Part shown: one piece after another, positions 36,564-63,583 of the stretch | Layout: every line of letters begins with the position of its first letter | How positions within the stretch are numbered: the first letter of the stretch is position 1 | NCBI RefSeq assembly: GCF_001019715.1 | Contig: NZ_BBXJ01000001.1 | Coordinates: forward strand, 930,001-994,000 | Direction: 5' to 3' | DNA from: Rodentibacter caecimuris | GTDB lineage: Bacteria > Pseudomonadota > Gammaproteobacteria > Enterobacterales > Pasteurellaceae | Length of the DNA: 64,000 nt | The notes under the pieces: model-generated | What the model was told of the DNA's origin: nothing | What the model saw: only the letters and a program-made list of their open reading frames with translations | The model's database searches: none | Translations under genes and position numbers: made by a program

Positions 36564-37496
36564 ATGACCATACCCATGCAAAAAGAATCTCAAAATATCC
36601 TCGTCATTTCCTATTCACAAACAGGGCAACTTTCCCGTCTTGTGGAACATTTTCTTACACCGTTACAAAGTAATAGTATTCACATGGAACATCACATCAT
36701 TAAGCCATGCGAACCTTACCCTTTCCCTTGGAAATTTCTTTCCTTTTTTAACCAATTTCCTGAATCTGTACATTTACAACCAGCCCCTATTCATTCCCCC
36801 GAATTCCAACAAGAAAAATACGATCTCGTGATTATCGCCTACACGGTTTGGTTTCTTTCACCAAGTCAGCCAATAACGGCTTTTTTACAATCAAAACAAG
36901 CCAAAAGACATTTAAAAAATACGCCGGTCATTACTCTGATCGGCTGCCGTAATATGTGGTTACAAGCACAAGAAAAAATGAAAATCTTATTGGCAGATTG
37001 TGGTGCAAATTTGATTGCGAATGTGGTAAAAGTGGATCAGTCTAATGATTGGGCAAGTTTTATTACCACACCAATGTGGATGCTCACAGGCAAGAAAAAA
37101 GCACTCTCTTGGTTGCCAAGTGCGGGCATTGCCGAAAATGAAATAAAAGATATGCAACGCTTTGGCGAAAAACTTTTACAAATCTTGCAACAAAATCAAC
37201 CACTTGACACCACAATTTTCCAAGAAATGGGCGCAGTAAAAATTGATGAAAAATTAATGATGAGTGAAAAAGTTGGTAGCCGAAGTTTTCATATTTGGGG
37301 AAAATTACTGATAAAGTGCGGTCAAATTTCGCCAAGTTTTCGCAAAATCGTGCTATGTTTCTACATTGTCTTTCTAGTAGCAATGATTTTAACGGTTGTC
37401 CCGATTTCAGCGATCATAAAACGTGTATTAAATCCATTGATACGGAAAAAATTAGATGAGCAAAAACGGTATTTTGCCAAACCAAGTGGAGAGTAA
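36564..37496 (+). CDS. darA: Dialkylresorcinol biosynthesis protein DarA-like (flavodoxin-fold aromatase)
   Basis: 310 residues. The N-terminus has a flavodoxin-like FMN loop (VISYSQTGQLSRLVEHF, about residues 13-29), followed by YDLVIIAYTVWFLSPSQP and VITLIGCRNMWLQAQEKM. A C-terminal hydrophobic segment (IVLCFYIVFLVAMILTVVPI, about 262-281) would anchor it in the membrane. This matches the family called dialkylrecorsinol-condensing enzyme DarA, reported to aromatise the cyclohexanedione intermediate made by DarB. The start at 36564 is close to an in-frame ATG at 36576; neither has a good ribosome site. It is followed 21 bp later by a DarB-like gene. Confidence 0.8.
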   Translation: MTIPMQKESQNILVISYSQTGQLSRLVEHFLTPLQSNSIHMEHHIIKPCEPYPFPWKFLSFFNQFPESVHLQPAPIHSPEFQQEKYDLVIIAYTVWFLSPSQPITAFLQSKQAKRHLKNTPVITLIGCRNMWLQAQEKMKILLADCGANLIANVVKVDQSNDWASFITTPMWMLTGKKKALSWLPSAGIAENEIKDMQRFGEKLLQILQQNQPLDTTIFQEMGAVKIDEKLMMSEKVGSRSFHIWGKLLIKCGQISPSFRKIVLCFYIVFLVAMILTVVPISAIIKRVLNPLIRKKLDEQKRYFAKPSGE

Positions 37497-37517
37497 AATT
37501 TTTCTACAGGATAAATT

Positions 37518-38663
37518 ATGTTATCAAATGTTTATATCAATAAAATTTCTGCGTTCTTACCTAATGAGCCGATTGCCAACGAGAAAATGGAGGCGGTGCT
37601 TGGAATGGTGGGGAAAACGCCATCTCGTGTAAGGAAAATGATTTTACGATCCAACGGTATTCAGCAACGTTACTATGCGATCGATCCTACCACTCGCCAA
37701 GCTACTCATACCAGCACAGAATTAGCCGTACAAGCGGTCAAAAATTTGGGGATTTCTGCAACGGATTTTACCAGTCTTGCGGTGGCAACCTCCTATCCCG
37801 ATCAAATTATGCCGGGGCAAGGGGTGATGGTACACGGTTTGTTGGAAAACGCTCCGCCGATGGAGGTGATGTCAATGTCGGGTGTATGTGCGGCGGGAAT
37901 GGCGGCGATGAAGCACGCTTTCAATGCTGTTCGCACAGGGGAGCATCAATGTGCCGTGGCGGTAGCATCGGAATGTGCTTCAGCAATTATGCGGAGTGAG
38001 AATTTTAAGGCAGAAGCAGACAGCAAATTGCTGGAAAACGCCAAGCCCGAAATTGGTTTTGAGAAAGATTTTTTACGTTGGATGTTATCAGACGGAGCTG
38101 GGGCGGTTGCACTTTCCAATCGACCGAATGAAACAGGTTTGAGCTTTAAAATCAATTGGATTGAATTGGTTTCCTTCGCCAATGAAATGCCCGTGTGTAT
38201 GTACGCAGGCGGTGATGTAAAAAATGGACAATTTGTAAGTTGGAAATCGGTGTCGCAAACTGAGCGAGACAGCCAAAGTTTTATGGCGATCAAACAAGAT
38301 GTGAAGTTGCTTAACGAAAATATTGTGCGTTGCACCGTAGAAAATGCACTCAAGCGGTTTATTGCTAAGCATAATTTGCAAGCAGACAATATCGACTATT
38401 TCCTACCGCATTATTCGTCGGGCTTCTTCCGTGATCGTCTGCTAGACGGCTTACGCAATATTGACTTTGAAATTCCACAGCAAAAATGGTTCACCAACCT
38501 CACCACCAAAGGCAATACGGGATCGGCCTCGCTCTACATTATGTTGGAAGAATTTGCCCGCACTTTCCCGCTTAAATCGGGACAAAAAGTACTGTGTTAT
38601 GTGCCGGAGAGCGGTCGATTTTCAAGTTGTTTTATGTTGCTAGAGGTGGTTAATGGAAATTGA
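37518..38663 (+). CDS. darB: Beta-ketoacyl-ACP synthase III-type DarB-like enzyme
   Basis: 381 residues with the thiolase fold of KAS III. The active-site Cys124 lies in MSMSGVCAAGMAAMKHAF, the histidine in YFLPHYSSGFF (about 298) and the asparagine in TTKGNTGSASLY (about 335), so the Cys-His-Asn triad is complete. DarB condenses two beta-oxoacyl/acyl chains to a cyclohexanedione carboxylate, the precursor of dialkylresorcinols. The gene directly follows darA, and its last 11 bases overlap the next open frame. No sign of damage. Confidence 0.85.
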   Translation: MLSNVYINKISAFLPNEPIANEKMEAVLGMVGKTPSRVRKMILRSNGIQQRYYAIDPTTRQATHTSTELAVQAVKNLGISATDFTSLAVATSYPDQIMPGQGVMVHGLLENAPPMEVMSMSGVCAAGMAAMKHAFNAVRTGEHQCAVAVASECASAIMRSENFKAEADSKLLENAKPEIGFEKDFLRWMLSDGAGAVALSNRPNETGLSFKINWIELVSFANEMPVCMYAGGDVKNGQFVSWKSVSQTERDSQSFMAIKQDVKLLNENIVRCTVENALKRFIAKHNLQADNIDYFLPHYSSGFFRDRLLDGLRNIDFEIPQQKWFTNLTTKGNTGSASLYIMLEEFARTFPLKSGQKVLCYVPESGRFSSCFMLLEVVNGN

Positions 38664-39030
38664 AGACATTCCCCAAGACAGCAGCAAAGTTTTCCACGGG
38701 CAGAAAAAAGTGATTTACGCCACCCGTAATGGAAAATTTGAAGCAGGCACTAGCACAGGTTGGCAAGCGGAAGAATTTGCCACCGAACAAGCGGTGGACG
38801 AACTTAACCAACTCACCGAAGCCGCTTTACAAGCGGTCAAAAACGGCGAAAAATCGGTCATTTACTACCTGATGTATAAAAACCGCTATGATCTCCAAAG
38901 CCTCGCCCAAGCCACAGGCTTCTGGCAATGGCAAATTAAACGGCATTTTAGACCGGAGGTTTTTGCGAAGTTGTCGGAGGGGAAGTTGGAAGTGTATGCA
39001 GGGGCGTTTGGGGGAAATTTGAGCATTTAA
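38653..39030 (+). CDS. Conserved-looking protein of the dialkylresorcinol arm, unknown function
   Basis: 125 residues. Its start overlaps the darB stop region by 11 bases, so it is probably translated with darB. It shows DIPQDSSKVFHGQKKVIYAT, then GTSTGWQAEEFATEQAVDEL, a helical middle, and GFWQWQIKRHFRPEVFAKL. No signal peptide or membrane segment; no recognised family. Position suggests a helper in resorcinol formation. Two CAAGCGGT-like sequences in it are unrelated to the uptake core. The RhuM-like gene begins one base after its stop. Confidence 0.7.
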   Translation: MEIEDIPQDSSKVFHGQKKVIYATRNGKFEAGTSTGWQAEEFATEQAVDELNQLTEAALQAVKNGEKSVIYYLMYKNRYDLQSLAQATGFWQWQIKRHFRPEVFAKLSEGKLEVYAGAFGGNLSI

Positions 39031-39031: not shown

Positions 39032-40024
39032 ATGTCAAATAACAATATTATTATCTACACTACCGAAGACGGTTTATCCCAATTTACCCTGCGTGAATTG
39101 GGATCGCAACTGTGGCTAAGCCAGTTGGAAATTGCTGAACTCTATCAAACCACTAAACAAAATATCAGCAAGCATATTAAAGCAATTTTGGCAGAAAATG
39201 AGTTGAGTGAACATTCAGTTGTCAACTTTCAGTTGACAACTGCCACTGACGGTAAGAATTACAATACACAGATTTATGCATTACCAATGATTTTAGCCAT
39301 TGGCTACCGTGTGCGTTCTACTCGTGGCACACAGTTTCGTCAGTGGGCAACTCGTACATTGGGTGAATATATCCAAAAGGGCTTTGTGCTAGATGAGGAG
39401 CGGTTAAAAAATCCGCCGATTGGTACAAATCAGGCAGACGATTATTTCGATCTATTATTGGAAAAAATTCGGGATATTCGGGCGAGTGAACGGCGAATGT
39501 ACTTGCGTGTGCGAGAAATTTTTACACTAGCGGCAGATTATCAGCCAAGCTTTAGGGAAACTAATCAATTTTTCCAAAAAATCCAAAATAAATTGCATTT
39601 TGCTTGTACTGATAAAACAGCGGCAGAGCTTATTTTTCAACGTTCAAATGCTGAATTGCCAAATATGGGACTAACAAATTTTCGTGGTTCAGAAGTGATA
39701 AGAAAAGATGTCACCATTGCGAAAAATTATTTGAATGAGCAAGAAATTACAGCATTAAATCGGATCGTTTCAATGTGGTTGGATTTTGCCGAAGATCAGG
39801 CTAGCCGTAAAAAGCAATTTTTCTTAAAAGATTGGGAAGACAAATTGGATAGTTTCCTTGTCTTTAATGAGAGAAATATGTTGAAAAATCAAGGCTCTAT
39901 AACAAAAAAACAAGCAGATGAAAAAGCTTTGTTGGAATATGATAAATTTAATCAACAACGCCGTTTAGAAAAAGAAAAAGCGGGCGAAAATTATATTGAG
40001 CAGCTCCTAAAATTAAAGAAATAA
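39032..40024 (+). CDS. RhuM-family (virulence protein/KilA-N-like) protein
   Basis: 330 residues. Typical RhuM features: LWLSQLEIAELYQTTKQNISKHIKAIL (helix-turn-helix-like N-terminus), YALPMILAIGYRVRSTRGTQFRQWAT and TLGEYIQKGFVLDEERLKNP, then the Fic-cap-like central region RVREIFTLAADYQPS and a basic C-terminal tail. The role of RhuM proteins is not established; they occur on pathogenicity islands and mobile DNA. It lies between two dialkylresorcinol-arm genes with which it has no evident link, so it is probably an insertion. Intact. Confidence 0.85.
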   Translation: MSNNNIIIYTTEDGLSQFTLRELGSQLWLSQLEIAELYQTTKQNISKHIKAILAENELSEHSVVNFQLTTATDGKNYNTQIYALPMILAIGYRVRSTRGTQFRQWATRTLGEYIQKGFVLDEERLKNPPIGTNQADDYFDLLLEKIRDIRASERRMYLRVREIFTLAADYQPSFRETNQFFQKIQNKLHFACTDKTAAELIFQRSNAELPNMGLTNFRGSEVIRKDVTIAKNYLNEQEITALNRIVSMWLDFAEDQASRKKQFFLKDWEDKLDSFLVFNERNMLKNQGSITKKQADEKALLEYDKFNQQRRLEKEKAGENYIEQLLKLKK

Positions 40025-40052
40025 GCAGTCATTTTTTATAGAAATTTTGCAA

Positions 40053-41039
40053 ATGAAAAACTTCCCCCACCAACACACCGCTCATTGCGAGAGCGGGGTA
40101 ATGTCCACCTTGCTAAAATCACAGGGGATAGATTTAAACGAAGCTATGGTTTTTGGTTTAGCCTCAGCTTTAACCTTTGTTTATCTGCCGATTATCAAAG
40201 TCAGCGGAATGCCTTTGATTTCTTACCGTATGCCGCCGAAGAGTATTATCAAAAATGTATCGAAAATGCTGAAAGTGCGGTTGAAAATGCAGAAATTTTC
40301 TAATGAAACGGCAGGGCAAATGGCGTTAGATCAGGCGTTGCAGAAGGGTAAATTAGTCGGCTTGCAGACGTCGGTTTTTTGGCTGCCTTATTTCCCGCCT
40401 GAAATGCGCTTTCATTTTAATGCGCATAATTTATTGGTATATGGTAAGGATCAAGATGATTATTTAATCAGCGACCCTGTGTTTGAAACGGTGCAACGTT
40501 GCCCAACAGGCGATTTGCAAAAAGCCCGTTTTGCTAAAGGGGCATTGGCGGCAAAAGGGTTGATGTATTATTTTGAGCAAACGCCTGATTTTTCACAAAT
40601 TGATTTGCCAGAATTAGTTCGAAAGTCTATTCGTAAACAAGCGAAACAAATGCTTGCGCCGCTGTTTTTTGTCGGTGTGAAAGGGATTCGTACCGTGGCG
40701 AAATCCATTGAAAATCTCGCCGCTTGCAAAAAAGGCGAAAAGTATAACAAACTCTATTTGGGACATATTGTGCGTATGCAGGAAGAAATTGGCACGGGCG
40801 GGGCAGGTTTCCGCTATCTTTATGCCTATTTCCTTGAACAAGCTGCTGAAATCTGTAACGAACCTAAATTCAAACAGGCTTCTGAACAGATGACTGAAAT
40901 TGGCGACCTCTGGCGAGAATTCGCCACCCTTTGCGTGAAACAATGTCGTAAACCGAGTATGGAAGGGTATAAAGAAGTGGCGGCGTTTTTGCGAGGAATT
41001 GCGGAGAGGGAAGAAACTTTGTGGAGAATACTAAAATAG
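40053..41039 (+). CDS. BtrH-like (BtrH N-terminal domain) putative acyltransferase
   Basis: 328 residues from the ATG at 40053. The N-terminus NFPHQHTAHCESGVMSTLL contains the His11-Cys12-Glu13 motif of the BtrH N-terminal domain. Further segments are LVGLQTSVFWLPYFPPEMRF, HNLLVYGKDQDDYLISDPVF and a helical C-terminal half resembling DUF4872. BtrH moves an acyl group from an acyl carrier protein to butirosin's aminoglycoside core. By analogy this protein could attach an ACP-bound aryl polyene to a dialkylresorcinol. The neighbouring ABC exporter genes support a role late in the pathway. The RhuM-like gene separates it from the upstream dar genes. A TTG six bases upstream was rejected as start. 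Confidence 0.78.
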   Translation: MKNFPHQHTAHCESGVMSTLLKSQGIDLNEAMVFGLASALTFVYLPIIKVSGMPLISYRMPPKSIIKNVSKMLKVRLKMQKFSNETAGQMALDQALQKGKLVGLQTSVFWLPYFPPEMRFHFNAHNLLVYGKDQDDYLISDPVFETVQRCPTGDLQKARFAKGALAAKGLMYYFEQTPDFSQIDLPELVRKSIRKQAKQMLAPLFFVGVKGIRTVAKSIENLAACKKGEKYNKLYLGHIVRMQEEIGTGGAGFRYLYAYFLEQAAEICNEPKFKQASEQMTEIGDLWREFATLCVKQCRKPSMEGYKEVAAFLRGIAEREETLWRILK

Positions 41040-41089: not shown

Positions 41090-41644
41090 ATGGATTATAA
41101 CATTGAAATTTATGAAACAGATGAATATAACCAGTGTAGATTTGCATTAGGAAACATTGCATTAGAAAATATTACGAACAGTACATTATTTGTATTTGGT
41201 ATTAATCCTAGTACTGCAGATGATCAGAAACCTGACCATACAATTAAGAAGGTAATAGGATTTGCTGAACACAATAGCTATTCTAGCTTTGTAATGTTTA
41301 ATGTATATCCCTTGAGAGAAACATATCCCTATAAACTGCCACCAGAAATGAATGATGATATTTTTAACCAGAATTTAAATGTTATTAAAGAGATATTGAG
41401 TGATATAAATAATCCTCATATTCTATTAGCGTATGGTAAATTAATAAATAGTAGAAATTATTTAAGACCGTGTTTAAATCAAATTTATAGAGAAATACAA
41501 AATCTTAATCAAGATATAAAATGGTTAAGAATTGGTCCAATGTTAGTATGTGGTCATCCAAGGCATCCTTTATACGCTCCTTATAGATATAAGTTAGAAG
41601 AAATTGATATGGATAGATATTTATCTAATGATACAAATAACTAA
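41090..41644 (+). CDS. DUF1643 family protein
   Basis: 184 residues. The segment LFVFGINPSTADDQKPDHTI, followed by FVMFNVYPLRET, is characteristic of DUF1643, whose role is unknown. The gene is clearly more AT-rich than the ones around it, and 17 bases of its 3' end overlap the start of the ABC ATPase gene. It has no known link to aryl polyene or resorcinol pathways and looks like an insertion. Intact reading frame. Confidence 0.82.
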   Translation: MDYNIEIYETDEYNQCRFALGNIALENITNSTLFVFGINPSTADDQKPDHTIKKVIGFAEHNSYSSFVMFNVYPLRETYPYKLPPEMNDDIFNQNLNVIKEILSDINNPHILLAYGKLINSRNYLRPCLNQIYREIQNLNQDIKWLRIGPMLVCGHPRHPLYAPYRYKLEEIDMDRYLSNDTNN

Positions 41645-42338
41645 TGTAAACCATCAATACCCCAACTCTCCAATTTCTGCTTTGCGAGATGTAAACCTAC
41701 ACATTCTCCAAGGTTCCTCCATCGGTTTACTCGGCCCTAACGGTGCAGGGAAAACCACGTTAATGTCATTAATGGCTGGATTACAAGAAGTACAATCCGG
41801 GCAGATTTTGTTTGATGATGTCCCCTTTGAACGTTTAACCAAAAAACAGCGCCATCAAATCTCTCTTGTGCCTCAGGATTTTGCGTTTTATCCGTTATTA
41901 ACGGTGTGGGAAAATTTGATATTTTTTGCCGCTCTTTATGCTATTTCGGATAAAAATTGGTTGTTGGAATTGTTGGAAAAAACAGGATTAACCACACATA
42001 AATCCAAGCTAGCAAAACATTTATCCGGCGGATTAAAACGCCGTTTAAATTTTGCTATTGGGTTAATTAACCGCCCGAAAGTAATTTTCTTAGACGAAAT
42101 CACAGTTGGAATCGATCCACAATCCCGTCAATTTATTTTAAATAGTGTAGCAGATCTAACCGATCAAGGCGTAACGGTAATTTATACCTCCCACTATCTA
42201 CAAGAAATTGAACAACTTTGTTCACAATTAGTGCTATTAAACGAGGGAAAAGTCATTTATCAAGGTAATTTGCAAGAAATTATCGGTAATCAACCGCTTG
42301 AGAAGTTTTATTTGGATTTTTTGGATAAGCAGATATAA
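41628..42338 (+). CDS. ABC transporter ATP-binding protein (dialkylresorcinol arm)
   Basis: 236 residues from the ATG at 41628. Walker A GPNGAGKT at 36-43, signature motif HLSGGLKRRLNFAIG, Walker B KVIFLDEITVGIDP (DEIT instead of DEPT), and the switch histidine in YTSHYLQE. It is the ATPase of an ABC-2 type exporter. The matching permease is at 44000, 1.66 kb away, separated by a convergent pair and a regulator gene. A longer start eight codons upstream was rejected as it lies inside the DUF1643 frame. A hairpin immediately downstream would end the transcript. Confidence 0.92.
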   Translation: MIQITNVNHQYPNSPISALRDVNLHILQGSSIGLLGPNGAGKTTLMSLMAGLQEVQSGQILFDDVPFERLTKKQRHQISLVPQDFAFYPLLTVWENLIFFAALYAISDKNWLLELLEKTGLTTHKSKLAKHLSGGLKRRLNFAIGLINRPKVIFLDEITVGIDPQSRQFILNSVADLTDQGVTVIYTSHYLQEIEQLCSQLVLLNEGKVIYQGNLQEIIGNQPLEKFYLDFLDKQI

Positions 42339-42367: not shown

Positions 42368-42817
42368 TTATTGCTTAGTTTTTGCCATTTTCAGTTTTTG
42401 AACCGCCGCTTTTCCTTTTTCTTCAGAAACTTGTTCTAAATTAGCGCCACCAACAAAAACACCCATTTTTATATACTGTCGGATAAAGTAATTTTTGCCT
42501 GAATCCGTCTTGATATTGAGATCATTGTTACTGAATTCCGATTCAGTTGAAATTTTATGATCACCCGCTTTTACTTGTTTGTAGAAAAAAACTTTTGGCG
42601 CCGATTCACCAATAAATTTATCATCGACATAAAGATTTTTCTTCAAGGCTGCACCAAAGACAGAATCACGATAGATATAAAGACCGGATAAACCTTTCTT
42701 TGGTGTATCAAATCTTTTCGCTTGAGCGTCTTGTTGTGGTGATGCCATTTCTGTTTTTGCACAAGCCGTTAAGAATAAAACGGCACTTAATCCTAAAAAA
42801 TTAAAAAATTTTTTCAT
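42368..42817 (-). CDS. DUF2846-type lipoprotein
   Basis: 149 residues from the ATG at 42817, with GAGG six bases upstream. The signal MKKFFNFLGLSAVLFLTAC is a lipoprotein signal with Cys19. The mature part (KGLSGLYIYRDSVFGAALKK, NLYVDDKFIGES and DLNIKTDSGKNYFIRQYIKM) resembles DUF2846 lipoproteins of unknown function. It is downstream of an outer-membrane barrel gene, from which it is separated by a hairpin. It interrupts the ABC exporter gene pair. Function unknown. Confidence 0.8.
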   Translation of the reverse strand: MKKFFNFLGLSAVLFLTACAKTEMASPQQDAQAKRFDTPKKGLSGLYIYRDSVFGAALKKNLYVDDKFIGESAPKVFFYKQVKAGDHKISTESEFSNNDLNIKTDSGKNYFIRQYIKMGVFVGGANLEQVSEEKGKAAVQKLKMAKTKQ

Positions 42818-42839
42818 TATAAACCTCGTCAAAATAAAT

Positions 42840-42867: not shown

Positions 42868-43446
42868 TTAGAAACGATAAGAGACATTCAGAGCAATTTT
42901 ATTCACTTTTGCTTTGATGTCTGATTCAATATTGCGCAATCTTGTTTGCGTATATTCTACGCCTGCTTCAAGTTTGTCGGTGAGTGCAAATTTAACACCT
43001 GCACCGTAGGCGACACCAAAGAGACTTGAACCTTCGACATATTGAGAAACTTCTTCGCCTAAATCAAAGGAGCTGACTTCAGCACCAATTTTTACATAAG
43101 GTAAAATGCTATCAGTCACACGATAGCCTTGTAAGTAAGCAATGCCAATATTGAATGTTTCTTTGGAAACAGAACTACCTGCATTACTGGTTTCAGAGCC
43201 GCCCGTTCTTAATTTGACTTCTCCAATGCCGACAAAATCTTTTGCAAAGTCAAAGCCATATTGGCCAAATACACCAATACTCGCTTTGTTTGAACTATTG
43301 GCACTCACCCCAAAACCCGGGATTTCAAAAGTATGCTTAGTTGAACTTAATTCTGTACCAACTGCAAATCCTGTAAAATTGCCTTCCGCTACGGCAAAAC
43401 TGCTAACCGAAACTGCCAGAATACCCACTAATGTTGTTTTTTTCAT
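42868..43446 (-). CDS. Outer-membrane beta-barrel protein (opacity/NspA-like)
   Basis: 192 residues. Signal peptide MKKTTLVGILAVSVSSFAVA, then about eight amphipathic strands (FTGFAVGTELSSTKHTFEI, KASIGVFGQYGFDFAKDFVG, LEAGVEYTQTRLRN) ending in LNVSYRF with terminal Phe. This fits an eight-strand barrel of the opacity-protein/porin-like superfamily. It may form a surface adhesin or a stability protein; no specific role can be given. It is divergent from an XRE regulator, with 158 bp between start codons, and could be under its control. Confidence 0.85.
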   Translation of the reverse strand: MKKTTLVGILAVSVSSFAVAEGNFTGFAVGTELSSTKHTFEIPGFGVSANSSNKASIGVFGQYGFDFAKDFVGIGEVKLRTGGSETSNAGSSVSKETFNIGIAYLQGYRVTDSILPYVKIGAEVSSFDLGEEVSQYVEGSSLFGVAYGAGVKFALTDKLEAGVEYTQTRLRNIESDIKAKVNKIALNVSYRF

Positions 43447-43604
43447 AGAAAAGCCTCGCTAAATGTGTGAAAATTGATTCGTATGGTTGCGCTTAAAAGC
43501 GATGGTTATTGTAAAAGAGTCGTCTTTTTTCTCCATTGACAGATAAGACAGAAAACCGCCTTTTTAATCCAAAAACAGTACTGAAAAGACAAATAGGTAA
43601 CCGA

Positions 43605-47172: not shown

Positions 47173-47191
47173 GGTCGGGTTTCACCCGACC
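47173..47191. terminator. Bidirectional terminator between the two arms of the pigment locus
   Basis: GGTCGGGT and ACCCGACC form an 8-bp GC-rich stem with a three-base loop, flanked by A/T-rich ATTAAAT/TTAATTT on both sides. It lies in the 29-bp gap between the convergent last genes. Confidence 0.75.
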
Positions 47192-55992: not shown

Positions 55993-56927
55993 TCGGATTT
56001 TTTCCAGAAATCGTAAAAATTAAACCAAAGAAGCGGGTTGGCTTCACATTCTTTGGCAAGGCAATCGGCATATTGTTGCATAGCTTGTCGAATGTTTTCT
56101 TCCCGTTCTTTTCCACGCCCCGTAATTTGCGGGCAAAAACGGCGTAATTTCAAGCGGTAACGCCCTTGTTCTTTTAAACAAAAAACGGTATTGATCGGGG
56201 CTTTTAACAGTGAGGCTAAAAACCATACCCCTTGCGGAAAATCGGCTTCTTGCCCGAGAAAATTAATTTTCGCCATTTTATCGCCCCGCACCGGAATACG
56301 ATCCGCCGCAATAGCAATCCACTCGCCACGTTCCAAGCGTTCGTGCAGCTCTAGCATTTTTTGTGCATCTAAATCTTCCACTTGAATCAGTGATAATTCG
56401 CTTGCTCCCGCTTTCACTAAAGCTCGATTAAAGGCTTCTGCGTGACGGCTATGTACTAATACATTCAAGCGAAAATTTGGGTGATGTCCATCGCCCACTA
56501 AAGAACGACATACTTCAATGTTACCGAAATGGGAACAAACGAGTAATTGTCCGCGATGCTGGTGGCTTGCACGAATATCTTGATAAAGGTTATCCGCATC
56601 ATCAACGGTTAAATCTTTATAAGTCATTTTATGTTGCCATACTGCAAAGCGATCGGTAATTGATTCGCCAAAAGCTAAAAATTGTCGAAAAACCGAGAAC
56701 GTAGGGAGTTTTACCTTTGGATAATTCCGGCTAAGATTATATTGATAAGTGCGGATATTCTTACGGGTGTTTTTTGATGTGGCAAAAAAATAACACACCA
56801 CAAAAAAGGTCACGACACGAATAGCAAATAACGGTAAATACTGCACAATTAAGCGGGTAAGATTTAAGAAAAAATGATTACCACGCTCCTGCTGCTTCGC
56901 CCAATGCTGCGAGTGTTGCTCACTCAT
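55989..56927 (-). CDS. LpxL-like acyltransferase of the aryl polyene cluster
   Basis: 312 residues from the ATG at 56927, which overlaps the glycosyltransferase stop as ATGA and has AGGA eight bases upstream. A hydrophobic segment (AIRVVTFFVVCYFFATSK, about 35-55) precedes the acyltransferase motifs LLVCSHFGNIEVCRSL (HFGN, catalytic His) and IAIAADRIPVRGDKM. The HtrB/LpxL family transfers acyl chains to a lipid sugar or glycerolipid. It probably attaches the polyene to a lipid carrier. In several other clusters I recall this domain fused to the glycosyltransferase next to it. Confidence 0.85.
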   Translation of the reverse strand: MSEQHSQHWAKQQERGNHFFLNLTRLIVQYLPLFAIRVVTFFVVCYFFATSKNTRKNIRTYQYNLSRNYPKVKLPTFSVFRQFLAFGESITDRFAVWQHKMTYKDLTVDDADNLYQDIRASHQHRGQLLVCSHFGNIEVCRSLVGDGHHPNFRLNVLVHSRHAEAFNRALVKAGASELSLIQVEDLDAQKMLELHERLERGEWIAIAADRIPVRGDKMAKINFLGQEADFPQGVWFLASLLKAPINTVFCLKEQGRYRLKLRRFCPQITGRGKEREENIRQAMQQYADCLAKECEANPLLWFNFYDFWKKSE

Positions 56928-57646
56928 AGTGGTTTTCCTGTCAACCAACGGGCTAACATACCGAAGAAAAGTTTGGTATGCATTTTGCTAATCAGCCAGT
57001 TATCTGCCCACGCCCGAAAATGTGATACGCCTCCCTGCTCATAATGCACCGACGTATCTACCCAAATAAGTGGAATTTGATACCAATGAGCTTTAATCAG
57101 AATTTCAATATCGAAATCCATTCTATCTCCAAGCGGTTCATTTTTGAGTAAATTTTGCAAAGTCTTGAGCGGGTAAAGGCGAAAACCGCACATTCCGTCT
57201 TTAATATCAAAAGAATGGGTATGAATGACATTCCAAAAATCCGTAATTTTACGTCCATAAAGGCGGGATTTGGGGACATCATCGCTGTAAATCGGGCGAC
57301 CACAAATAAGTGCGGTGGGATTTTTTTGCATTTTTTCCAGCATTATTTTTACATCGGCAAGATCATGTTGCCCGTCTGCATCAGCTTGTACGACATAATC
57401 AAATCCCATTTCTACGGCATATTTAAAACCACTTTTCATTGCCGCCCCTTTGCCGCCATTTTGTGAACGAAAATAAACAGAAACATCTTGTCTATTTTGT
57501 AGGGTTTGTAAGGTTGCTTGCTGTTCGACAGTCGAACCATCATCCACGACCAATACAGGTAAGCCAAGATCTAAAAACTGTTTCACCACATTGCAAATAG
57601 TGCCTGAGTGATTGTAGTGAGGGATTACCGCCAGTACCTTATGCAT
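56924..57646 (-). CDS. Family 2 glycosyltransferase
   Basis: 240 residues. The GT2 start VLAVIPHYNHSGTICNVVKQFL with VLVVDDGSTVEQ and the metal-binding VQADADGQHDLADVK identify a dolichol-phosphate-mannose-synthase-like glycosyltransferase. It has no extended membrane region. It probably forms part of the lipid head group in the aryl polyene product. It overlaps the acyl ligase gene by TAATG, and the acyltransferase gene downstream by ATGA. Confidence 0.88.
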   Translation of the reverse strand: MHKVLAVIPHYNHSGTICNVVKQFLDLGLPVLVVDDGSTVEQQATLQTLQNRQDVSVYFRSQNGGKGAAMKSGFKYAVEMGFDYVVQADADGQHDLADVKIMLEKMQKNPTALICGRPIYSDDVPKSRLYGRKITDFWNVIHTHSFDIKDGMCGFRLYPLKTLQNLLKNEPLGDRMDFDIEILIKAHWYQIPLIWVDTSVHYEQGGVSHFRAWADNWLISKMHTKLFFGMLARWLTGKPL

Positions 57647-58953
57647 TACAAGTTATCGTCCTGTTGAGTGAGAAAAATTTGGTTAAAATCCAAACGACTG
57701 ATTTTAGATTGGCTATTACGTGGTAGCTGTTGAGTGAAACGCCAAAACCGAGGAATACCGGCCATTTCTTGCGATTGCATTAGAAAATGACGGTGTTGTT
57801 CAATCAAGGCAACTCGTCCTTGTTGATGATAAACACGAATGCCTTCTTCCGTTAAGGCTACCCAAGCAGCAGGGCGTGCTTTCTTCGGGTGTGGGGCAAT
57901 GTAGCAATCTGCGACCAAAGGTTGTTGGAGTAAATGCTGCTCAATACTGACGAGCGAAATTCGCTTATCACCAAACTTGATAATGCGATCAATCCGCCCC
58001 AGTAGTTTAAATTGTTCACCGTAAAATTCTGCCGCATCGGCGGTTTGTTCCCGCTGATTAAGCCATTGGGAATCCACCCACAATGCGCCCTGTTCATTCA
58101 ATCCCACTTGAGTAAATGGGGTTGGGCGCCAAAGTCCATCGTCAGCCCGAAAAGCAATCGCGCCGGTTTCCGTACTACCATAGCACTCCACCACGGTTGT
58201 GTTGAGTTTTTCCCGTAAAGCATTGCCCACGTGAATAGGCAATACGCCACCTGCTGAAATGATGCCGGCAAGATTAAAATCAGCAAAACGTGAGTCAGCC
58301 GTATTTAAGTGGTTTAATAACGCAGGACTGCTGATCCAAAGACATTTTTTGGCATATAGACTCTCCGCGATCATATATTCAGGATAAGGCAACTGTTGAC
58401 GACCAATTGTCCAGCCCATCGCTAACGGCAGCATAATGCGATAAGACAATCCATAATGATGTTGTGCGGAAACGCTTGAAACGATGTGAAAATCCGGCGT
58501 GTTAAAAGGGATAGAAGAGACGATCGCTTGTGATTCAATCCACATTTGTTGTGCCGTTTTACATAGAATTTTGGGTTCGCCACTGCTACCTGAAGTCTTC
58601 AACCAAATTTCCGTTTGATTTTCTTTATCAAAGAGCGGTCGGTTTTCGCTAACTTTTTGCAAAATTCCGTAAGTTTCAAACCGCTTGTCATCAAATAAAA
58701 AATCACTATGCTCGGCGATCCACTGTTGGTTTTCCGGCAATAAGTTAGGCGGAAGTAAAATTCGAACATTGGCATTAAAACAAGCCAATATAGCACAAGC
58801 AAAACTGGCAGCATCATCAAACCAAAATGCCACCGAATGTACATTATCTTGTTTAAGTTGTGCGGTAATTTGTTGTGAGCGTTCGGCAAAATCCTGCCAT
58901 TTCCACTCAGGGTTTAATGCAATTAAGGTGTTAGGCGTAAAATTATTTTTCAT
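57646..58953 (-). CDS. apeH: AMP-dependent acyl/aryl ligase without dehydratase domain
   Basis: 435 residues of the adenylate-forming superfamily. The A3-like loop is LKTSGSSGEPKILC (about 120-133); later motifs include VECYGSTETGAIAFR and the hinge/A8 region FKLLGRIDRIIKFGDKRI. The family ligase ApeH activates an aryl acid such as 4-hydroxybenzoate and loads the carrier protein. Here a second ligase, at 59498, is fused to a dehydratase domain, so specialisation of the pair is likely. It overlaps the membrane protein gene upstream by 11 bases and is coupled to the glycosyltransferase by TAATG. Confidence 0.83.
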   Translation of the reverse strand: MKNNFTPNTLIALNPEWKWQDFAERSQQITAQLKQDNVHSVAFWFDDAASFACAILACFNANVRILLPPNLLPENQQWIAEHSDFLFDDKRFETYGILQKVSENRPLFDKENQTEIWLKTSGSSGEPKILCKTAQQMWIESQAIVSSIPFNTPDFHIVSSVSAQHHYGLSYRIMLPLAMGWTIGRQQLPYPEYMIAESLYAKKCLWISSPALLNHLNTADSRFADFNLAGIISAGGVLPIHVGNALREKLNTTVVECYGSTETGAIAFRADDGLWRPTPFTQVGLNEQGALWVDSQWLNQREQTADAAEFYGEQFKLLGRIDRIIKFGDKRISLVSIEQHLLQQPLVADCYIAPHPKKARPAAWVALTEEGIRVYHQQGRVALIEQHRHFLMQSQEMAGIPRFWRFTQQLPRNSQSKISRLDFNQIFLTQQDDNL

Positions 58954-59491
58954 AATGCTTCTTCATATATTGGCGGACAATCCATTCTCCCGCCATTAAT
59001 ATGCCCATTAAAAGATACGAAATGAAACCGTTATATAATGCCCAATAATCAAGTAAATTGGAATAAATCGTAATACTTGAAATCGCAATGTTGAAGATAA
59101 AAAAGCCGCACCAAATCAGGGTAACATTACGGGTATAACGTACACCTTTTTCACTCAGGTTCGGGGTTTGCATACGGGCAAAACGTTCAATGATGGTTTG
59201 TTTTTGCCATAAACTTGTGCCGAAAATAACCAACATCAAGCCGTTTATCATAATCGGATAACCATACATCATCTCATCGGTGCGGGTGATACCGACAATC
59301 ATCAGTAATATGGCAATACCCCACGAGAAATACCGCATAGCAGTTTGTTCGTAAATCCCTTTTAATCCCCAAAAAAAGCCGATAATAAAAGGCAGTAAAA
59401 CCAAAACCTGTGAACTTTCTCCCCATAACCAATAAATCGGATAAGCAAGACTAGCAAAAAATAAAACTAAATTGATAATGGCTTTCATCAA
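58943..59491 (-). CDS. COG4648-type membrane protein of the aryl polyene cluster
   Basis: 182 residues with about six hydrophobic segments (for example LVLFFASLAYPIYWLWGES, VLVLLPFIIGFFWGLKG, YNGFISYLLMGILMAGEW). It matches the inner-membrane proteins (ApeG-like) that accompany the ligase in aryl polyene clusters. Function unknown; a scaffold for the membrane-bound polyene synthase is a reasonable guess. Seven bases separate it from the ligase-dehydratase gene upstream. Confidence 0.82.
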   Translation of the reverse strand: MMKAIINLVLFFASLAYPIYWLWGESSQVLVLLPFIIGFFWGLKGIYEQTAMRYFSWGIAILLMIVGITRTDEMMYGYPIMINGLMLVIFGTSLWQKQTIIERFARMQTPNLSEKGVRYTRNVTLIWCGFFIFNIAISSITIYSNLLDYWALYNGFISYLLMGILMAGEWIVRQYMKKHYEK

Positions 59492-59497: not shown

Positions 59498-61150
59498 CTA
59501 ATTTACCAACACCGCCACGCCACTACAGCATACCTCATTTTCAGTGGTGAGTTGGAAAACTACCTTGCCTTTGGCTTCATCCCATTTGAGGTTTAATGTA
59601 AATTGATCCGCCGGACGAAGAAATTTTTGGAACTTTAATTTATCAAGGTGTGAACACGTGTAGTGTTGTGGCACAAGTTTTGCTATTTGCTCAAAGATCC
59701 ATTGTAATTCCACCACACCCGGTACAAGTGGAAATTCAGAGAAATGATCTTTCAAGTAAACCAAGTCTAACGGTACTTTACCCATAGCCTGAAATATATT
59801 GCCCTCACATTTTTCTTCTAGCCAAATAGGCTCTTTGCAATCTTCTAAGAAAGTGCGGTTAAATGCCAGTTTATTTATTTTTGATTGGGTATTACGAGGT
59901 AAAGTATCGGTAAAACGCCAAAAACGTGGAATAGCCGCCTCTTCCTGAGAATATTTAAGACTGGTTTTTAAGATCCGAACCAATGCCCGATGACCTTTTT
60001 CACGCAGAAATGCGATGCCCTCCCAGTTCAATTCAACCCAAGATGCTAAGCGTTTTTTTTCTGGATGCTCTGCAATATAACAATCACTTACCCAGTTGTG
60101 CTGAATTAATGTATTTTCTACGTTAATCAAAGAAATGCGTTTATCTCCAATTTTCACAATCCGATCGGAACGCCCCAGTAAGAGAAAACCACTATTTTCA
60201 AACTTCACGACATCAGCGGTTTGTTCTCGTTGGGAAAGCCAACTTCCCTCAATCCATAATTCCCCTTGCTCATTGGTGCCAAGCCGACTTTCAGGTAAAG
60301 ATTGCCATAAACCGATATCTTCACGGATAGCGATTGGCCCGGTCTCTGTACTGCCGTAAATTTCAACAAGCGGTACATAACGACGGATAGTTTGCGATAA
60401 ATCTTCCGCCAACATACCGCCCGATGAAATAAGACCAATTACACTTTGTGGCAATTTAGCTTGCTTCCATTCCATACTTGCTAACATTGACGGGCTACTC
60501 ACCACCACAGCTGATTTGCATTGCTTCGCTTGCACAAAAATACATTCCGGATAAAACTGTTGAATGCGCCCAATTCGCCAACCTTTTACCAATGCCATCA
60601 GAATATGTACGGTTAAACCGTAAATATGCTGAATACTCACAGTGCTAATCACCGTAGTGGCATTGCCATTTGCAAAAGGTAAGGTTTGCGCAAGCACATT
60701 AGCCCCGAGCCACATTTGCTGTGCAGTTTTAACAATAGTTTTTGCCTCCCCCGTACTCCCCGAGGTTTTTAACCAAATTTCGGTTTGATTGTTGAAATCA
60801 AAGAGCGGTCGATTTTGTGTAGTTTTTTGAAAAGGGGGCGATGCAAATTCATCAAATTGAAAGGCGTTCTCTAATTCTCCTTCGCGATCGGTAATCCAAC
60901 ATTGAGCATGCTGATTGACCCATTGAATACTTTCTTCGGTAAAATTAGATGGAAATAATATACGAACATTAGCATGCCATGCACCGAGTAATAGGCAAGC
61001 CAACTTAGCACCATCTTCCATCCAAACGGCAATAGAATGAAATTGGCGGATGCTGAGCTCCGCAGAAATCTGCAAGGCTCGTTGCTCAAAATCCGCATAA
61101 GTCCAAGCCGGTTGATTGGCAACGAGATCTGAAGGGAGATAGGCTAACAT
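59498..61150 (-). CDS. AMP ligase fused to a hotdog dehydratase domain
   Basis: 550 residues. The first 435 residues are an acyl/aryl ligase much like the one at 57646: loop WLKTSGSTGEAKTIVK, EIYGSTETGPIAIRED and LLLGRSDRIVKIGDKRISL. The extra C-terminal part (about 450-550: VPLDLVYLKDHFSEFPLVPG with the VELQWIFEQI helix) is a FabZ/ApeI-like hotdog dehydratase (HFSEFPLVPG contains the catalytic His). Fusion of ligase and dehydratase is unusual relative to the separate apeH and apeI of other clusters that I recall. It should load the starter onto the ACP and dehydrate during elongation. Coupled by one-base overlap with the ACP gene (61150). Confidence 0.82.
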   Translation of the reverse strand: MLAYLPSDLVANQPAWTYADFEQRALQISAELSIRQFHSIAVWMEDGAKLACLLLGAWHANVRILFPSNFTEESIQWVNQHAQCWITDREGELENAFQFDEFASPPFQKTTQNRPLFDFNNQTEIWLKTSGSTGEAKTIVKTAQQMWLGANVLAQTLPFANGNATTVISTVSIQHIYGLTVHILMALVKGWRIGRIQQFYPECIFVQAKQCKSAVVVSSPSMLASMEWKQAKLPQSVIGLISSGGMLAEDLSQTIRRYVPLVEIYGSTETGPIAIREDIGLWQSLPESRLGTNEQGELWIEGSWLSQREQTADVVKFENSGFLLLGRSDRIVKIGDKRISLINVENTLIQHNWVSDCYIAEHPEKKRLASWVELNWEGIAFLREKGHRALVRILKTSLKYSQEEAAIPRFWRFTDTLPRNTQSKINKLAFNRTFLEDCKEPIWLEEKCEGNIFQAMGKVPLDLVYLKDHFSEFPLVPGVVELQWIFEQIAKLVPQHYTCSHLDKLKFQKFLRPADQFTLNLKWDEAKGKVVFQLTTENEVCCSGVAVLVN

Positions 61151-61404
61151 TACACAGAGTTTTGTTGTTTTAACACTGCTTGCACCACATCGTCTACGGT
61201 ACGCACATTGCGAAAATCTTCTGCCTGTAATTTATGCCCCGTTTTTCGTTTGATATGATCAATCAAGTCAATCGCATCAATGCTGTCAATCTCTAACTCT
61301 TCATAAAGATTGGTTTCCGGTTTAATTCGCTCCGGTTCAATTTCAAACAGCGATTGAAGTGCTTCGCTGAGTAAATCTCTGATTTCTTGTTCAGTCACAA
61401 TCAA
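61150..61404 (-). CDS. apeF: Acyl carrier protein (ApeF-like)
   Basis: 84 residues. Ser41 in LEIDSIDAIDLIDHI is the phosphopantetheine site. The region EEIRDLLSEAL and FEIEPERIKPETNLYEELE is standard for ACPs. It carries the growing polyene or the aryl starter. Overlaps the next ACP by ATGA and shares its last base with the ligase start. Confidence 0.9.
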   Translation of the reverse strand: MIVTEQEIRDLLSEALQSLFEIEPERIKPETNLYEELEIDSIDAIDLIDHIKRKTGHKLQAEDFRNVRTVDDVVQAVLKQQNSV

Positions 61405-61670
61405 ACTTCCCCTTTTTTACTACGAATAAATTGTGCCAGTGTTGCAACACTTTCAAAATGTTCACGTAATTGATTTTGTTCGCTATCCAACTGCAAACCA
61501 AATGTTTTTTGTACCGCCAAACCTAATTCAAGTGCATCCACCGAATCAAGTCCTAAACCCTCATCAGAAAATAATACCGTATTGTCTTCGATATCATTTA
61601 TAGAAACATCTTCTAGTGCGAGACTATCAATAATTAGTTGTTTAAGTTGCTGTTCGAGTGTCATTTTCAT
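61401..61670 (-). CDS. apeE: Acyl carrier protein (ApeE-like)
   Basis: 89 residues. Ser43 in GLGLDSVDALELGLAV is the phosphopantetheine site. It is the first of two tandem ACP genes in the minus-strand operon. Its start lies inside the end of the acyltransferase gene. Division of labour between the two ACPs (starter and elongation) is known for aryl polyene systems. Confidence 0.9.
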   Translation of the reverse strand: MKMTLEQQLKQLIIDSLALEDVSINDIEDNTVLFSDEGLGLDSVDALELGLAVQKTFGLQLDSEQNQLREHFESVATLAQFIRSKKGEV

Positions 61671-62430
61671 TATCCTTAGTTTGAGAGTTAAAATAATGTT
61701 GTAAATATTCGGTTAATCGGCGAGAAGCAATCGGTAATGGTTTTTCTGCCAGCCAATCCTTCGGATTGATGTCTTCTCCTACAATAAGTTCATATTGAAT
61801 ACGTTTTTTCGGCAACTGATACCAAGGTTGCCCTTTTTTAAAATTCAGCGGATTCATTCTAATGACGATTGGAGTAATAATATTTGCACTACGCAAGCCA
61901 ATAGATACGGCACCACGATTGAGTTTAATGTCACCATCCCAACCGGTTCTTGTGCCTTCAGGGAAAAGCAAAAGCGCTTGTTCTTTTAGTACCTCATCGC
62001 ATTCTTCCAGAAGTTCCAATGATTCGGTATTGGGTAAAAAACCGCAGGCTAAAATTTGGTTTCTCATTGTAGGATTATTCAGTAATTCTTTCTTTACAAT
62101 ACAATTCAGTTCGGGGGCTTTAGAGAGAATCAATACTACATCGAGTAGCGACGGGTGGTTTACCAACACTAATTGTCCTTGGCGTCCCAAACGTTCAAAA
62201 CCTTGATATTTCACCTCGAGAACACCCGAAATAGTTAAATATCGGATAAAATATGCCCAAATTTTACTAACTAGACGACGAATCTTAAATTGGGTAGCCA
62301 AACTATTTTTTTTATGATTTTTAGCATAAGGATAAAGATAGAGCTGAAATAAGCTACCTGCCACGCCCCAAAAAAGGAAACCTAATGCAGTGGCAATAAA
62401 ACGTCCGATCCAATCTAGTTTTTTCTCCAT
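61642..62430 (-). CDS. 1-acyl-sn-glycerol-3-phosphate acyltransferase-like protein
   Basis: 262 residues from the ATG at 62430 (AAGGAA seven bases upstream; a TTG two codons earlier was rejected). Two membrane segments at the N-terminus are followed by VLVNHPSLLDVVLILSKAPEL (catalytic HX4D, His-Asp) and LLFPEGTRTGWDGDIKLNRG, the PlsC motifs. It is the ApeD-like acyltransferase placed after ApeC in these clusters. It probably makes or extends the lipid anchor. It overlaps the upstream gene by 16 bases. Confidence 0.87.
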   Translation of the reverse strand: MEKKLDWIGRFIATALGFLFWGVAGSLFQLYLYPYAKNHKKNSLATQFKIRRLVSKIWAYFIRYLTISGVLEVKYQGFERLGRQGQLVLVNHPSLLDVVLILSKAPELNCIVKKELLNNPTMRNQILACGFLPNTESLELLEECDEVLKEQALLLFPEGTRTGWDGDIKLNRGAVSIGLRSANIITPIVIRMNPLNFKKGQPWYQLPKKRIQYELIVGEDINPKDWLAEKPLPIASRRLTEYLQHYFNSQTKDNENDTRTAT

Positions 62431-63149
62431 TGCCAAGTTCCTTTTGCGCTACTTTTCGTTTTCCATTCTTTAATGCTCAAGTACTGATGTTTTACCCAAG
62501 TTAATGCATTATCGGAGCCTGAAGGATCCCCCTCGCTCTCGCCTAACTCCAATGTGTAATCACCACCTTTTTCGACTAACAAACTTAACGCATAAGAAAA
62601 AGGCTGGCGATCAACGGGTGAAACATTGTATGAATCTCCTAAAGGCGATTCTGCCACAACAACCAACACTTGCTTTATTCCTTCGTTCAATAATAAATAG
62701 GCTTCTAACAAGGCGATCTCTAAATTATCTTGTTGAGCGGTTAATGCGGTGGTTTCCGCCTTTACACCATTAAGTTCTGACCATTGCCCTACCAAAGCAT
62801 TATGCACGGAAAGGCTAAAGGAAGTGGGGGAAACATCTCCCTCTGTCAATAAACTATGCCAAAGATCAAAATTACGATTAATTTCCCCATTTGAAGAGGC
62901 ATACACTACCGGAATATTTTTATTTTCGCCTAATAAATCCCACGCTGATTCAAAAAACAAACGAGCGGATGGGCTTAATCGGCGACGTTTTAACGGAGGT
63001 AAAAAAGCTAACTTAGGAGAAACATCTTCAAAATTAACCGCATTTTCTTGCCAAAAGGTTTCTCCTTTTTTCCAATCGTCTGACTCTAGTTTTTTAGAAC
63101 AAACCATTGCCCAGTTTTTAATATTGAATGAAAAGCGGCAGATTGACAT
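62415..63149 (-). CDS. apeC: Chain-length-factor-like ketosynthase protein (ApeC-like)
   Basis: 244 residues. LKRRRLSPSARLFFESAWDLLG, PTSFSLSVHNALVGQWSELNG and QVLVVVAESPLGDSYN resemble the N-terminal ketosynthase domain used in ApeC. The position of the catalytic Cys lacks one. In characterised systems ApeC forms an active complex with the catalytic ApeO. It is the first biosynthetic gene of the minus-strand operon, two bases after the lipoprotein gene at 63152. Confidence 0.8.
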   Translation of the reverse strand: MSICRFSFNIKNWAMVCSKKLESDDWKKGETFWQENAVNFEDVSPKLAFLPPLKRRRLSPSARLFFESAWDLLGENKNIPVVYASSNGEINRNFDLWHSLLTEGDVSPTSFSLSVHNALVGQWSELNGVKAETTALTAQQDNLEIALLEAYLLLNEGIKQVLVVVAESPLGDSYNVSPVDRQPFSYALSLLVEKGGDYTLELGESEGDPSGSDNALTWVKHQYLSIKEWKTKSSAKGTWQWRKN

Positions 63150-63151
63150 AA

Positions 63152-63583
63152 TTAATAATCTTTGAATAATTGACCAATCATAGTATCAGTTTGACCTTGC
63201 AAACCTACTTCGGCAACACGATCTTTTTCATCACCTTTGCGAGCATAAAGAACAAAGCCAACTTCACTTTGATTTTTAACTTCCATTAAACGTAGTTTTG
63301 CTTTTGCCACAATGTTACGGTTACCTTTTACGCCAAAGGCTAAAATATAATCACACTTCGCATCACTGGAGCTAGCGATTGATTCAGAGGTAATATTTTT
63401 CTTTTTCAGGCTTGTTTTTAAACTGGCTACAAATTGATCCGGTGCACCACGCGTACTACCTTTTACACAAACATGCTTTACATTCAAAGCACGATTCACA
63501 GGTTTTAAGCTGCCTTCATCAACCCCACCCGCAGAACATGCGGCTAAACCAAATGCCATTAACCCTAAAATAATGTTTTTCAT
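63152..63583 (-). CDS. Lipoprotein, first gene of the aryl polyene transcript
   Basis: 143 residues. The signal peptide MKNIILGLMAFGLAAC ends at Cys16, followed by SAGGVDEGSLKPVNRALNVK and CDYILAFGVKGNRNIVAKAK. GGAGAG lies just upstream of the start. The family was not recognised with certainty; it resembles small outer-membrane lipoproteins of the Sbal_3080 type. Only two bases separate it from the apeC-like gene, so the promoter in front of it should drive the whole minus-strand operon. Its link to the polyene pathway is only positional. Confidence 0.75.
   Translation of the reverse strand: MKNIILGLMAFGLAACSAGGVDEGSLKPVNRALNVKHVCVKGSTRGAPDQFVASLKTSLKKKNITSESIASSSDAKCDYILAFGVKGNRNIVAKAKLRLMEVKNQSEVGFVLYARKGDEKDRVAEVGLQGQTDTMIGQLFKDY

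Follow-up and report, generated by a model that had tools for sequence, protein, structure and literature searches.

Does a Pasteurellaceae genome encode a flexirubin-type pigment, and what are unrelated genes doing between the genes that would make it? Both questions are raised by a locus of Rodentibacter caecimuris in which genes of dialkylresorcinol (DAR) and aryl polyene (APE) biosynthesis, dar and ape, lie side by side. The locus spans positions 36564–63583 of the window, by which we mean the whole stretch of 64,000 nucleotides analysed here (contig NZ_BBXJ01000001.1, positions 930,001–994,000), itself a part of contig 1 of a two-contig, 2.72-Mb genome; the limits of the open reading frames (ORFs) agree with these ends. 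The locus very probably encodes a proteobacterial flexirubin-type pathway, with an aryl polyene esterified to a DAR as its predicted product. Pathways of this kind are known already; this one is an example from Pasteurellaceae, where one in four of the sampled species has it. Furthermore, we tentatively propose, giving the idea close to an even chance, that certain junctions in biosynthetic operons of Pasteurellaceae (dar and his) are fixed slots for interchangeable cassettes, many of them anti-phage genes in dar, which are swapped horizontally and independently of their neighbours, the pigment operon doubling as a co-transcribed carrier of defence genes.

Two convergent biosynthetic arms

Families, folds, active-site motifs, a conserved gene order and co-occurrence carry the pathway assignment. 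The dar operon (plus strand, 36564–47169) runs in the order darA, darB, darG, darH, ABC ATPase, permease, acyl carrier protein (ACP), ketosynthase (KS; darJ) and a KS-like gene (darK), and the ape operon occupies the minus strand (47199–63583). An earlier interpretation made from the letters alone (the sequence-only reading) had described a combined APE and DAR locus in a Pasteurellaceae genome, with arms meeting tail to tail at 47173–47191. Both points stand: DarB, DarG and DarH, together with ApeR, ApeO and ApeQ, score above curated cut-offs, a set of ApeA-to-ApeR-type genes is present, and the arms end at 47169 and 47199 on either side of an inverted repeat found exactly there. The hairpin lacks a T-run and the terminator scan made no call at it; no RNA element of Rfam was matched within 34000–64000 at gathering cut-offs. 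The search for this gene order in other Pasteurellaceae, which the same reading had suggested, was run; the dar order recurs in relatives and is therefore not due to chance.

PDB entries matched by sequence comprise StlD, ApeO, ApeC and ApeI. DarB matches the solved StlD structure (5gk0, E = 9e-126), and the Cys, His and Asn motifs are present in its sequence. DarH carries BtrH_N and DUF4872 domains and has no PDB sequence match. The darA product matched no NCBIfam or Pfam family at E ≤ 0.001; its AlphaFold2 model (alignment of 21 sequences) has a predicted local distance difference test score (pLDDT) of 90.7, and its top Foldseek matches include flavoproteins and WrbA (E ~1e-6), with some receptor entries scoring too, one of which is titled as a flavodoxin fusion. 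Such a flavodoxin/WrbA-like domain would fit a flavin-dependent aromatase, for which DarA is a candidate.

DarK was matched by no family model in the NCBIfam and Pfam scans. The best PDB match of its model (pLDDT 82.9) is ApeC (6qsp_B, E = 2.5e-7, TM 0.57 on the query), and, as read from the sequence, its only cysteines (56 and 178) leave none at the active-site position. Judged by this model, DarK would be an ApeC-like chain-length factor, an inactive-looking KS-like partner of DarJ. In the ape arm, ApeO and ApeC match both chains of the solved ApeO:ApeC complex (6qsp); ApeO keeps Cys-His-His, and the sequence of ApeC has cysteines only at 4 and 17 and none at the active-site position. The APE set is present, with a predicted aryl-acid AMP ligase, ACPs, a ketoreductase and a dehydratase (ApeP, on a weak FabZ match and position), and all three ACPs of the locus (one dar, two ape) carry the serine motif. 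The sequence-only reading had given each arm its own ACP and KS plus an inactive KS-like partner. A KS with an inactive-looking partner does occur in both arms (DarJ/DarK and ApeO/ApeC), but the count for the ape arm is two ACPs and two KSs that look intact (ApeO and ApeR), rather than one of each.

Predicted pathway and its distribution

Every reaction of the pathway is a prediction, as are the parts given to DarH and DarJ:DarK, the product itself and the purpose it serves. An aryl acid would be loaded on an ACP by an AMP ligase of the ape arm, and ApeO:ApeC, ApeQ and the dehydratases would extend this starter to an aryl polyene. DarB would turn two fatty-acid-derived thioesters, one of which may come from DarJ:DarK with the dar ACP, into a cyclohexanedione, which DarA, with its flavodoxin fold, would aromatise to a DAR. 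DarH would then join polyene and resorcinol as an ester, a role that we assign because of its family name and its co-occurrence with ApeM. The ABC exporter, ApeM and the LolA-like ApeL would carry the lipid outward, where it would probably guard against oxidants. The locus offers a test both of ester formation by DarH and of DarJ:DarK as a second KS:chain-length-factor pair.

Our family sample held 140 Pasteurellaceae genomes (species) from 43 genera. DarH occurs in 35 of these species and 15 genera, which overturns the earlier suggestion that the trait is uncommon for the family; by prediction, flexirubin-type chemistry reaches a quarter of the sampled species. ApeM occurs in 52 genomes, three times at only 26–28% identity, and all 35 DarH genomes carry it (Fisher p = 2e-20, kinship ignored; by genus, hypergeometric p = 2e-5), two of them (G080, G138) with the genes widely separated on a single contig. 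A strong DarB match (E < 1e-100) accompanies DarH in 34 of the 35; G032 is without DarB. The arms are convergent, as in the window, in 9 of 34 relatives, divergent in 6 and in tandem in 2; dar lies within the ape operon in 10, and 2 more look so, cut by contig ends. The other 5 have no ape marker within the stretch examined (G126, with a stretch of 14 kb only, G017, G018, G080 and G138), with ApeM ~27 kb away in G017 and G018. The linkage of dar and ape is kept in most relatives despite at least four arrangements of the arms.

Two further genomes deserve mention. G128, grouped in the genus of the window, has a Pasteurellaceae-type dar locus. In G094, a 75%-identical DarB is encoded at G094:C15:31535-32665 in a genome with no DarH or ApeM match, and this organism could possibly make a free DAR.

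Weighing the predicted product

A number of results weigh against a flexirubin-type product. The flexirubin equivalogs of Bacteroidetes are not reached (flexirubin_DarG, 123.9 bits against a cut-off of 170; LolA2_flexi, 86.5 against 125; FlxB, 268.8 against 340), and neither is the narrow DarB model (NF053539, 452.6 against 550); the locus is therefore not filed as a member of that group, though it would work like one. As for the flexirubin-like lipid of the sequence-only reading, the term fits the logic of the pathway, for which Azoarcus is a proteobacterial precedent, and is not borne out by these models. PF04345 (chorismate lyase, UbiC) and PF00221 (HAL/TAL) had no match in the window's genome in searches that detected their positive controls, and PF04345 is absent from 13 of the 35 DarH genomes; a search for chorismatase (PF21168) gave no match and no signal from any positive control, and is uninformative. 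With neither UbiC nor an aromatic ammonia-lyase found, the genome offers no evident source of the aryl starter, and unless an aryl acid is supplied from outside the pathway might stand idle; the absent starter enzyme makes aryl-acid scavenging testable. NCBIfam scans of the locus found no methyltransferase (the ApeB function), the assignments of ApeP, ApeN, ApeA and ApeM come from position or below-cut-off matches, and the foreign genes described below, of which two run antisense, might compromise the more distal genes of the dar operon.

Might the cluster then be decaying, with no product made? The missing UbiC and ammonia-lyase and the inserts at three dar junctions would fit, as would damaged copies in relatives (DarH interrupted by a stop codon in G032 and G019, DarB split in G024), but the dar and ape frames of the window are all open, the catalytic and ACP motifs searched for are all present, and UbiC is found in G119 of the same genus, so that we regard decay as unlikely. 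A pair of separate products, a membrane-anchored aryl polyene and a free DAR acting as signal or antioxidant, with genes that are neighbours through shared history only, seems improbable as well. DarH without ApeM occurs in none of the 35 genomes, even where the genes are distant; DarH belongs to a curated acyltransferase family; and esters have been reported from Azoarcus and Chitinophaga. These observations are set against E. coli APE lipids described without a DAR part in the excerpt of PMC8253772, the absence of DarH from 17 of the 52 ApeM genomes (3 of these 17 ApeM matches being only 26–28% identical), the formation of DAR by dar genes alone in a foreign host (Azoarcus proteins in E. coli; C. 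pinensis darA and darB), and the DarB of G094. The esterified polyene–DAR product is the reading that we prefer.

Table 1 Features of the dar/ape locus, with positions in the window and the basis of each assignment
Feature	Positions	Strand	Basis
darA, candidate DAR aromatase	36564..37496	+	model: flavodoxin-fold N-terminal domain, helical tail
darB, StlD/DarB-family KS	37518..38663	+	NF005293, 554 bits (cut-off 450)
darG, DarG-family DAR biosynthesis protein	38653..39030	+	NF053536, 167 bits (70)
RhuM-family gene, darG|darH junction	39032..40024	+	PF13310, E 9e-104; PADLOC candidate family PDC-S05, E 8e-145
darH, BtrH-like acyltransferase, candidate ester-forming enzyme	40047..41039	+	NF053550, 512 bits (300)
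DUF1643 gene, darH|ABC junction	41090..41644	+	PF07799, E 2e-25; no PADLOC match
ABC exporter ATPase	41604..42338	+	ABC ATPase families; Walker A and LSGG motifs
Lipoprotein, ATPase|permease junction	42368..42832	-	ORF list, family scans
Outer-membrane protein, ATPase|permease junction	42868..43446	-	ORF list, family scans
Helix-turn-helix (HTH) regulator, ATPase|permease junction	43536..43982	+	ORF list, family scans
ABC exporter permease	44000..45247	+	weak ABC-2 permease families; position conserved in relatives
dar-arm ACP	45247..45534	+	PF00550, E 2e-5; LDSL motif
darJ, KS with Cys-His-His	45531..46583	+	PF00109/PF02801; aligned residues, motifs
darK, chain-length-factor-like partner, 193 aa	46588..47169	+	model
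Hairpin between arms	47173..47191	none	perfect inverted repeat GGTCGGGT-TTC-ACCCGACC, 8-bp stem
apeR-type KS	47199..48455	-	NF006587, 688 bits (470)
apeQ ketoreductase	48500..49228	-	TIGR01831, 378 bits (339)
apeP-type dehydratase	49241..49765	-	weak FabZ match, E 0.02; position
apeO KS	49719..50945	-	6qsp_A, E 1.6e-86; NF006618, 437 bits (407)
apeN-type lipoprotein	50948..51457	-	position and N-terminus only; no family match
Halogenase-like flavoenzyme, WxWxIP motif	51433..52668	-	3nix flavoprotein as top match, E 7e-106; halogenases follow
apeM-type exporter	52685..54952	-	HpnN and HAE3 transporter families, below cut-off
apeL, LolA-like	54965..55552	-	LolA2_flexi, 86.5 bits (125), below cut-off
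apeK-type thioesterase	55549..55992	-	TIGR00051, 60.2 bits (68.7), below cut-off
Acyltransferase and glycosyltransferase genes	55989..57646	-	family matches below cut-off
Second AMP ligase	57646..58953	-	family scan
apeG-type membrane protein	58943..59491	-	VC0807 family, below cut-off
AMP ligase fused to ApeI-like dehydratase	59498..61150	-	ligase families; residues 463-535 vs 6qsr_A, E 1e-8
apeF and apeE ACPs	61150..61670	-	family scan; IDSI and LDSV motifs
apeD acyltransferase	61642..62436	-	TIGR00530, 39 bits (103); NHPSLLD motif
apeC chain-length factor	62415..63149	-	PF13723; 6qsp_B, E 1.7e-20
apeA-type lipoprotein	63152..63583	-	Sbal_3080 family, 21 bits (80); position

Some entries of Table 1 call for comment. 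The true start of the ABC ATPase probably lies further inside its ORF. We take PDB entry 6qsr to be ApeI; in the g2 genomes the ApeI-like fusion seems to be placed on the other of the two AMP ligases. The flavoenzyme has a WLWLIP sequence at residue 215, a form of the WxWxIP motif that is linked to halogenases, and its best match, 3nix, bears the title flavoprotein/dehydrogenase only. The gene is found in only some relatives, which suggests a halogenated head group in some species.

Variable inserts at dar junctions

Absent from the account of the sequence-only reading are five foreign genes that lie between the dar genes of the window and affect three junctions. The stretch 41090–41610 of the DUF1643 gene has a G+C content of ~28%. 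In G056, homologues of the block of lipoprotein, outer-membrane protein and HTH regulator (42368–43982) are found where apeG adjoins the second ligase, with partial counterparts there in G049 and G084, and this block has therefore moved between junctions.

Counting a junction of more than 250 bp as filled, darG|darH is filled in 25 of 33 genomes with the window included (24 of 32 relatives alone), and darH|ABC ATPase in 19 of 34 (18 of 33). In relatives, darA|darB (4/30), ATPase|permease (4/31) and permease|ACP (3/30) are filled occasionally, and darB|darG (0/31), ACP|darJ (0/30) and darJ|darK (0/29) never. Some filled junctions hold no more than a remnant, as of RhuM in G120, or repeats, as in G021. 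The ape arm of the same genomes has 11 of 346 junctions filled, a sum that omits AT2|apeK and apeM|apeN, at which a regular gene is present in some of the genomes. In gammaproteobacteria other than Pasteurellaceae, all 16 loci compared have a tight darG|darH junction of at most ~0.1 kb, these being the class-level DarH matches (n = 21) other than 2 from Pasteurellaceae and 3 weak ones. Filling tends to favour loosely packed junctions and to spare those that overlap, yet apeQ|apeR is often spaced (15–211 bp) and filled in 0 of 22, and the packing rule is thus not strict. Close relatives differ in their inserts: the window has RhuM and DUF1643, and G127, the nearest among those compared, carries an unrelated gene of 251 aa and has nothing inserted at darH|ABC.

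We chose 30 proteins for Pfam, a set that takes in the regular 141-aa lipoprotein of other ape arms and a G049 gene upstream of darA and in which one protein was represented by its last 186 residues; for PADLOC we chose 20, 2 of them from the window. PADLOC families were matched at E < 1e-20 by eight of the 20, namely RhuM/PDC-S05, HEC-01A and HEC-01B, which lie side by side, Shedu SduA, ThsB, DRT8, PDC-S02 (YhcG) and a PtuA-like ATPase, where PDC-S05, PDC-S02 and HEC-01 are candidate or unconfirmed defence names and the ThsB and PtuA-like matches each cover one component of a system that usually has partners; two more matched weakly and ten had no match. Pfam adds Phd/YefM with PIN, a Schlafen AlbA_2 protein with a Fic-like C-terminus, GNAT, ankyrin repeats and a Y1 transposase. 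The ORF of the latter, at darH|ABC in L051:13036-13542 and relatives, lies between near-perfect GGGGCGGGTCCTGTGCCCGCCC-type inverted repeats and is REP/RAYT-like.

The histidine operon as a control and signs of exchange

The his operon served as a control in 32 of the 35 DarH genomes, three having no histidinol dehydrogenase match; in G049 and G120 it is cut short. It has 89 of 171 junctions filled: hisD|hisC 16/32, hisC|hisB 10/31, hisB|hisH 29/30, hisH|hisA 23/28 and hisF|hisI 11/22, with 0/28 for hisA|hisF, whose genes overlap in the window's genome. The hisB|hisH cases of G128 and G129 are 6.3-kb blocks that may be a break in the operon. The notion that slots are specific to dar was rejected, the his operon being filled likewise; filling is therefore no peculiarity of the pigment locus, and defence cargo describes the inserts in part only. 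Insert clusters common to dar and his number 2 of 98 (RhuM-type and YhcG-type), in a set that also covers two ape-arm junctions. Among representatives of the his slots, 44 of 52 were scanned with Pfam (six of the eight left out come from the 6.3-kb block common to G128 and G129); GNATs were matched most often, and many of the families are not known to be linked to defence. In the window's own genome, the hisD|hisC insert (L154:3753-4798) holds an ORF of the RhuM cluster and a 189-aa ORF, and inserts at hisB|hisH and hisH|hisA occupy L154:7584-9207 and 9821-10330.

These results bear directly on whether the inserts are neutral hitchhikers, tolerated where packing is loose and unconnected with either defence or the pigment, an explanation whose chances we put somewhat short of even. 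The heavier filling of the his operon, with its GNATs and many non-defence families, would be expected of hitchhikers, as would the Y1-transposase ORF with its REP-like repeats and the 10 of 20 dar-region proteins without a PADLOC match. Neutral passengers would not readily account for the 8 of 20 that match PADLOC families at E < 1e-20, adjacent HEC-01A and HEC-01B included, nor for the fact that nearly all inserts at darG|darH and darH|ABC are co-oriented ORFs. Both the mechanism and the function of the slots, the novel part of this locus, are what we infer in proposing cassette exchange. If the packing tendency is true, it predicts cassette sites genome-wide; if slots are general, defence genes lie hidden in metabolic operons, away from the defence islands where they are usually sought, and new ones could be found by scoring the occupancy of junctions.

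The dar genes differ among themselves in their relationships. Within the genus group of the window, DarB is 90–92% identical to that of the window in G117, G118, G126 and G127 and 72–73% in G119 and G120, and it reaches 89–91% in G006, G007 and G009 of another genus. The identities of DarJ are reversed, at 77–89% in G119 and G120 and 46–49% in G117, G118, G006, G007 and G009; G127 has 90%, and DarJ of G126 lies outside coverage. With the two patterns opposed, the operon is thus mosaic, its front half differing in history from its back half. The RhuM proteins of the window and of G084 share 92% identity, and the DarG and DarH proteins of the two share 76% and 79%; on these identities, the cassette may have moved separately from its flanks, differences in rate being an alternative.

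DNA uptake sequences were considered as a route and the hypothesis was rejected: signals (9-mers) were not clearly nearer the two dar slots than random places, with median distances of 219 against 318 bp and 290 against 380 bp and mean ranks of 0.43 and 0.47 (33 and 34 genomes). Transformation is therefore only a guess. Three of the seven Apl-type signals of the window fall in darB–darG, which fits an imported segment, but the number is small.

Comparison with known systems

The closest counterpart is the arcuflavin locus of Azoarcus sp. BH72, whose nine dar genes (darA, darB, a conserved hypothetical gene, a BtrH-like gene, ATPase, permease, ACP, KS and a last gene; PMC3949708, Table 1) are ordered as in the window and whose genome holds polyene genes too. 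Its pigment was concluded to be a polyene–DAR hybrid from mass spectrometry and labelling, DAR clusters were counted in 16 of 39 genomes with polyene clusters (nine within or adjacent), and such pigments were judged unusable as a marker of Bacteroidetes (PMC3949708). In the excerpts consulted, the Azoarcus polyene genes lie at two unlinked loci, with dar ~20 gene numbers from one of them, whereas the window has a single locus; a Phd/PilT pair occupies the ATPase|permease junction (PMC3949708), where the window has its lipoprotein–outer-membrane protein–HTH block; and an XanB2-type chorismatase is present, whereas in the window's genome UbiC and HAL/TAL were not found and the chorismatase search had no working positive control.

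The flexirubin clusters of Chitinophaga pinensis and Flavobacterium johnsoniae share with the window DarA/DarB, type II polyene enzymes, LolA, a glycosyltransferase, an acyltransferase and an exporter (PMC3992019). Their 4-coumarate starter is made by a tyrosine ammonia-lyase (PMC3992019), whereas no aromatic lyase was found in the window's genome, and the window's proteins fall below the equivalog cut-offs of the Bacteroidetes clusters. The APE clusters of E. coli and Xenorhabdus doucetiae are alike in ApeO:ApeC, an ApeI-type dehydratase, two ACPs and three KS-type proteins (PMC8253772). In comparison with what is described of them, the window has a duplicated AMP ligase, one copy of which is fused to the ApeI-like domain, and the halogenase-like flavoenzyme. 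APE clusters of Aggregatibacter have been published before. To our knowledge, the E. coli and X. doucetiae clusters have no dar operon.

Among the matches listed from the main text of open-licence papers, we found neither a Pasteurellaceae polyene–DAR locus nor operon-slot cassettes in print. The nearest likeness to the latter is given by restriction–modification operons with embedded RhuM, Doc or HEPN toxins, in which toxin or defence genes are likewise nested in a host operon (PMC3710099); the host operons described there are themselves defence systems, whereas those considered here make pigment or histidine. It is these embedded, interchangeable cassettes, rather than the pigment locus itself, that are the more interesting lead.

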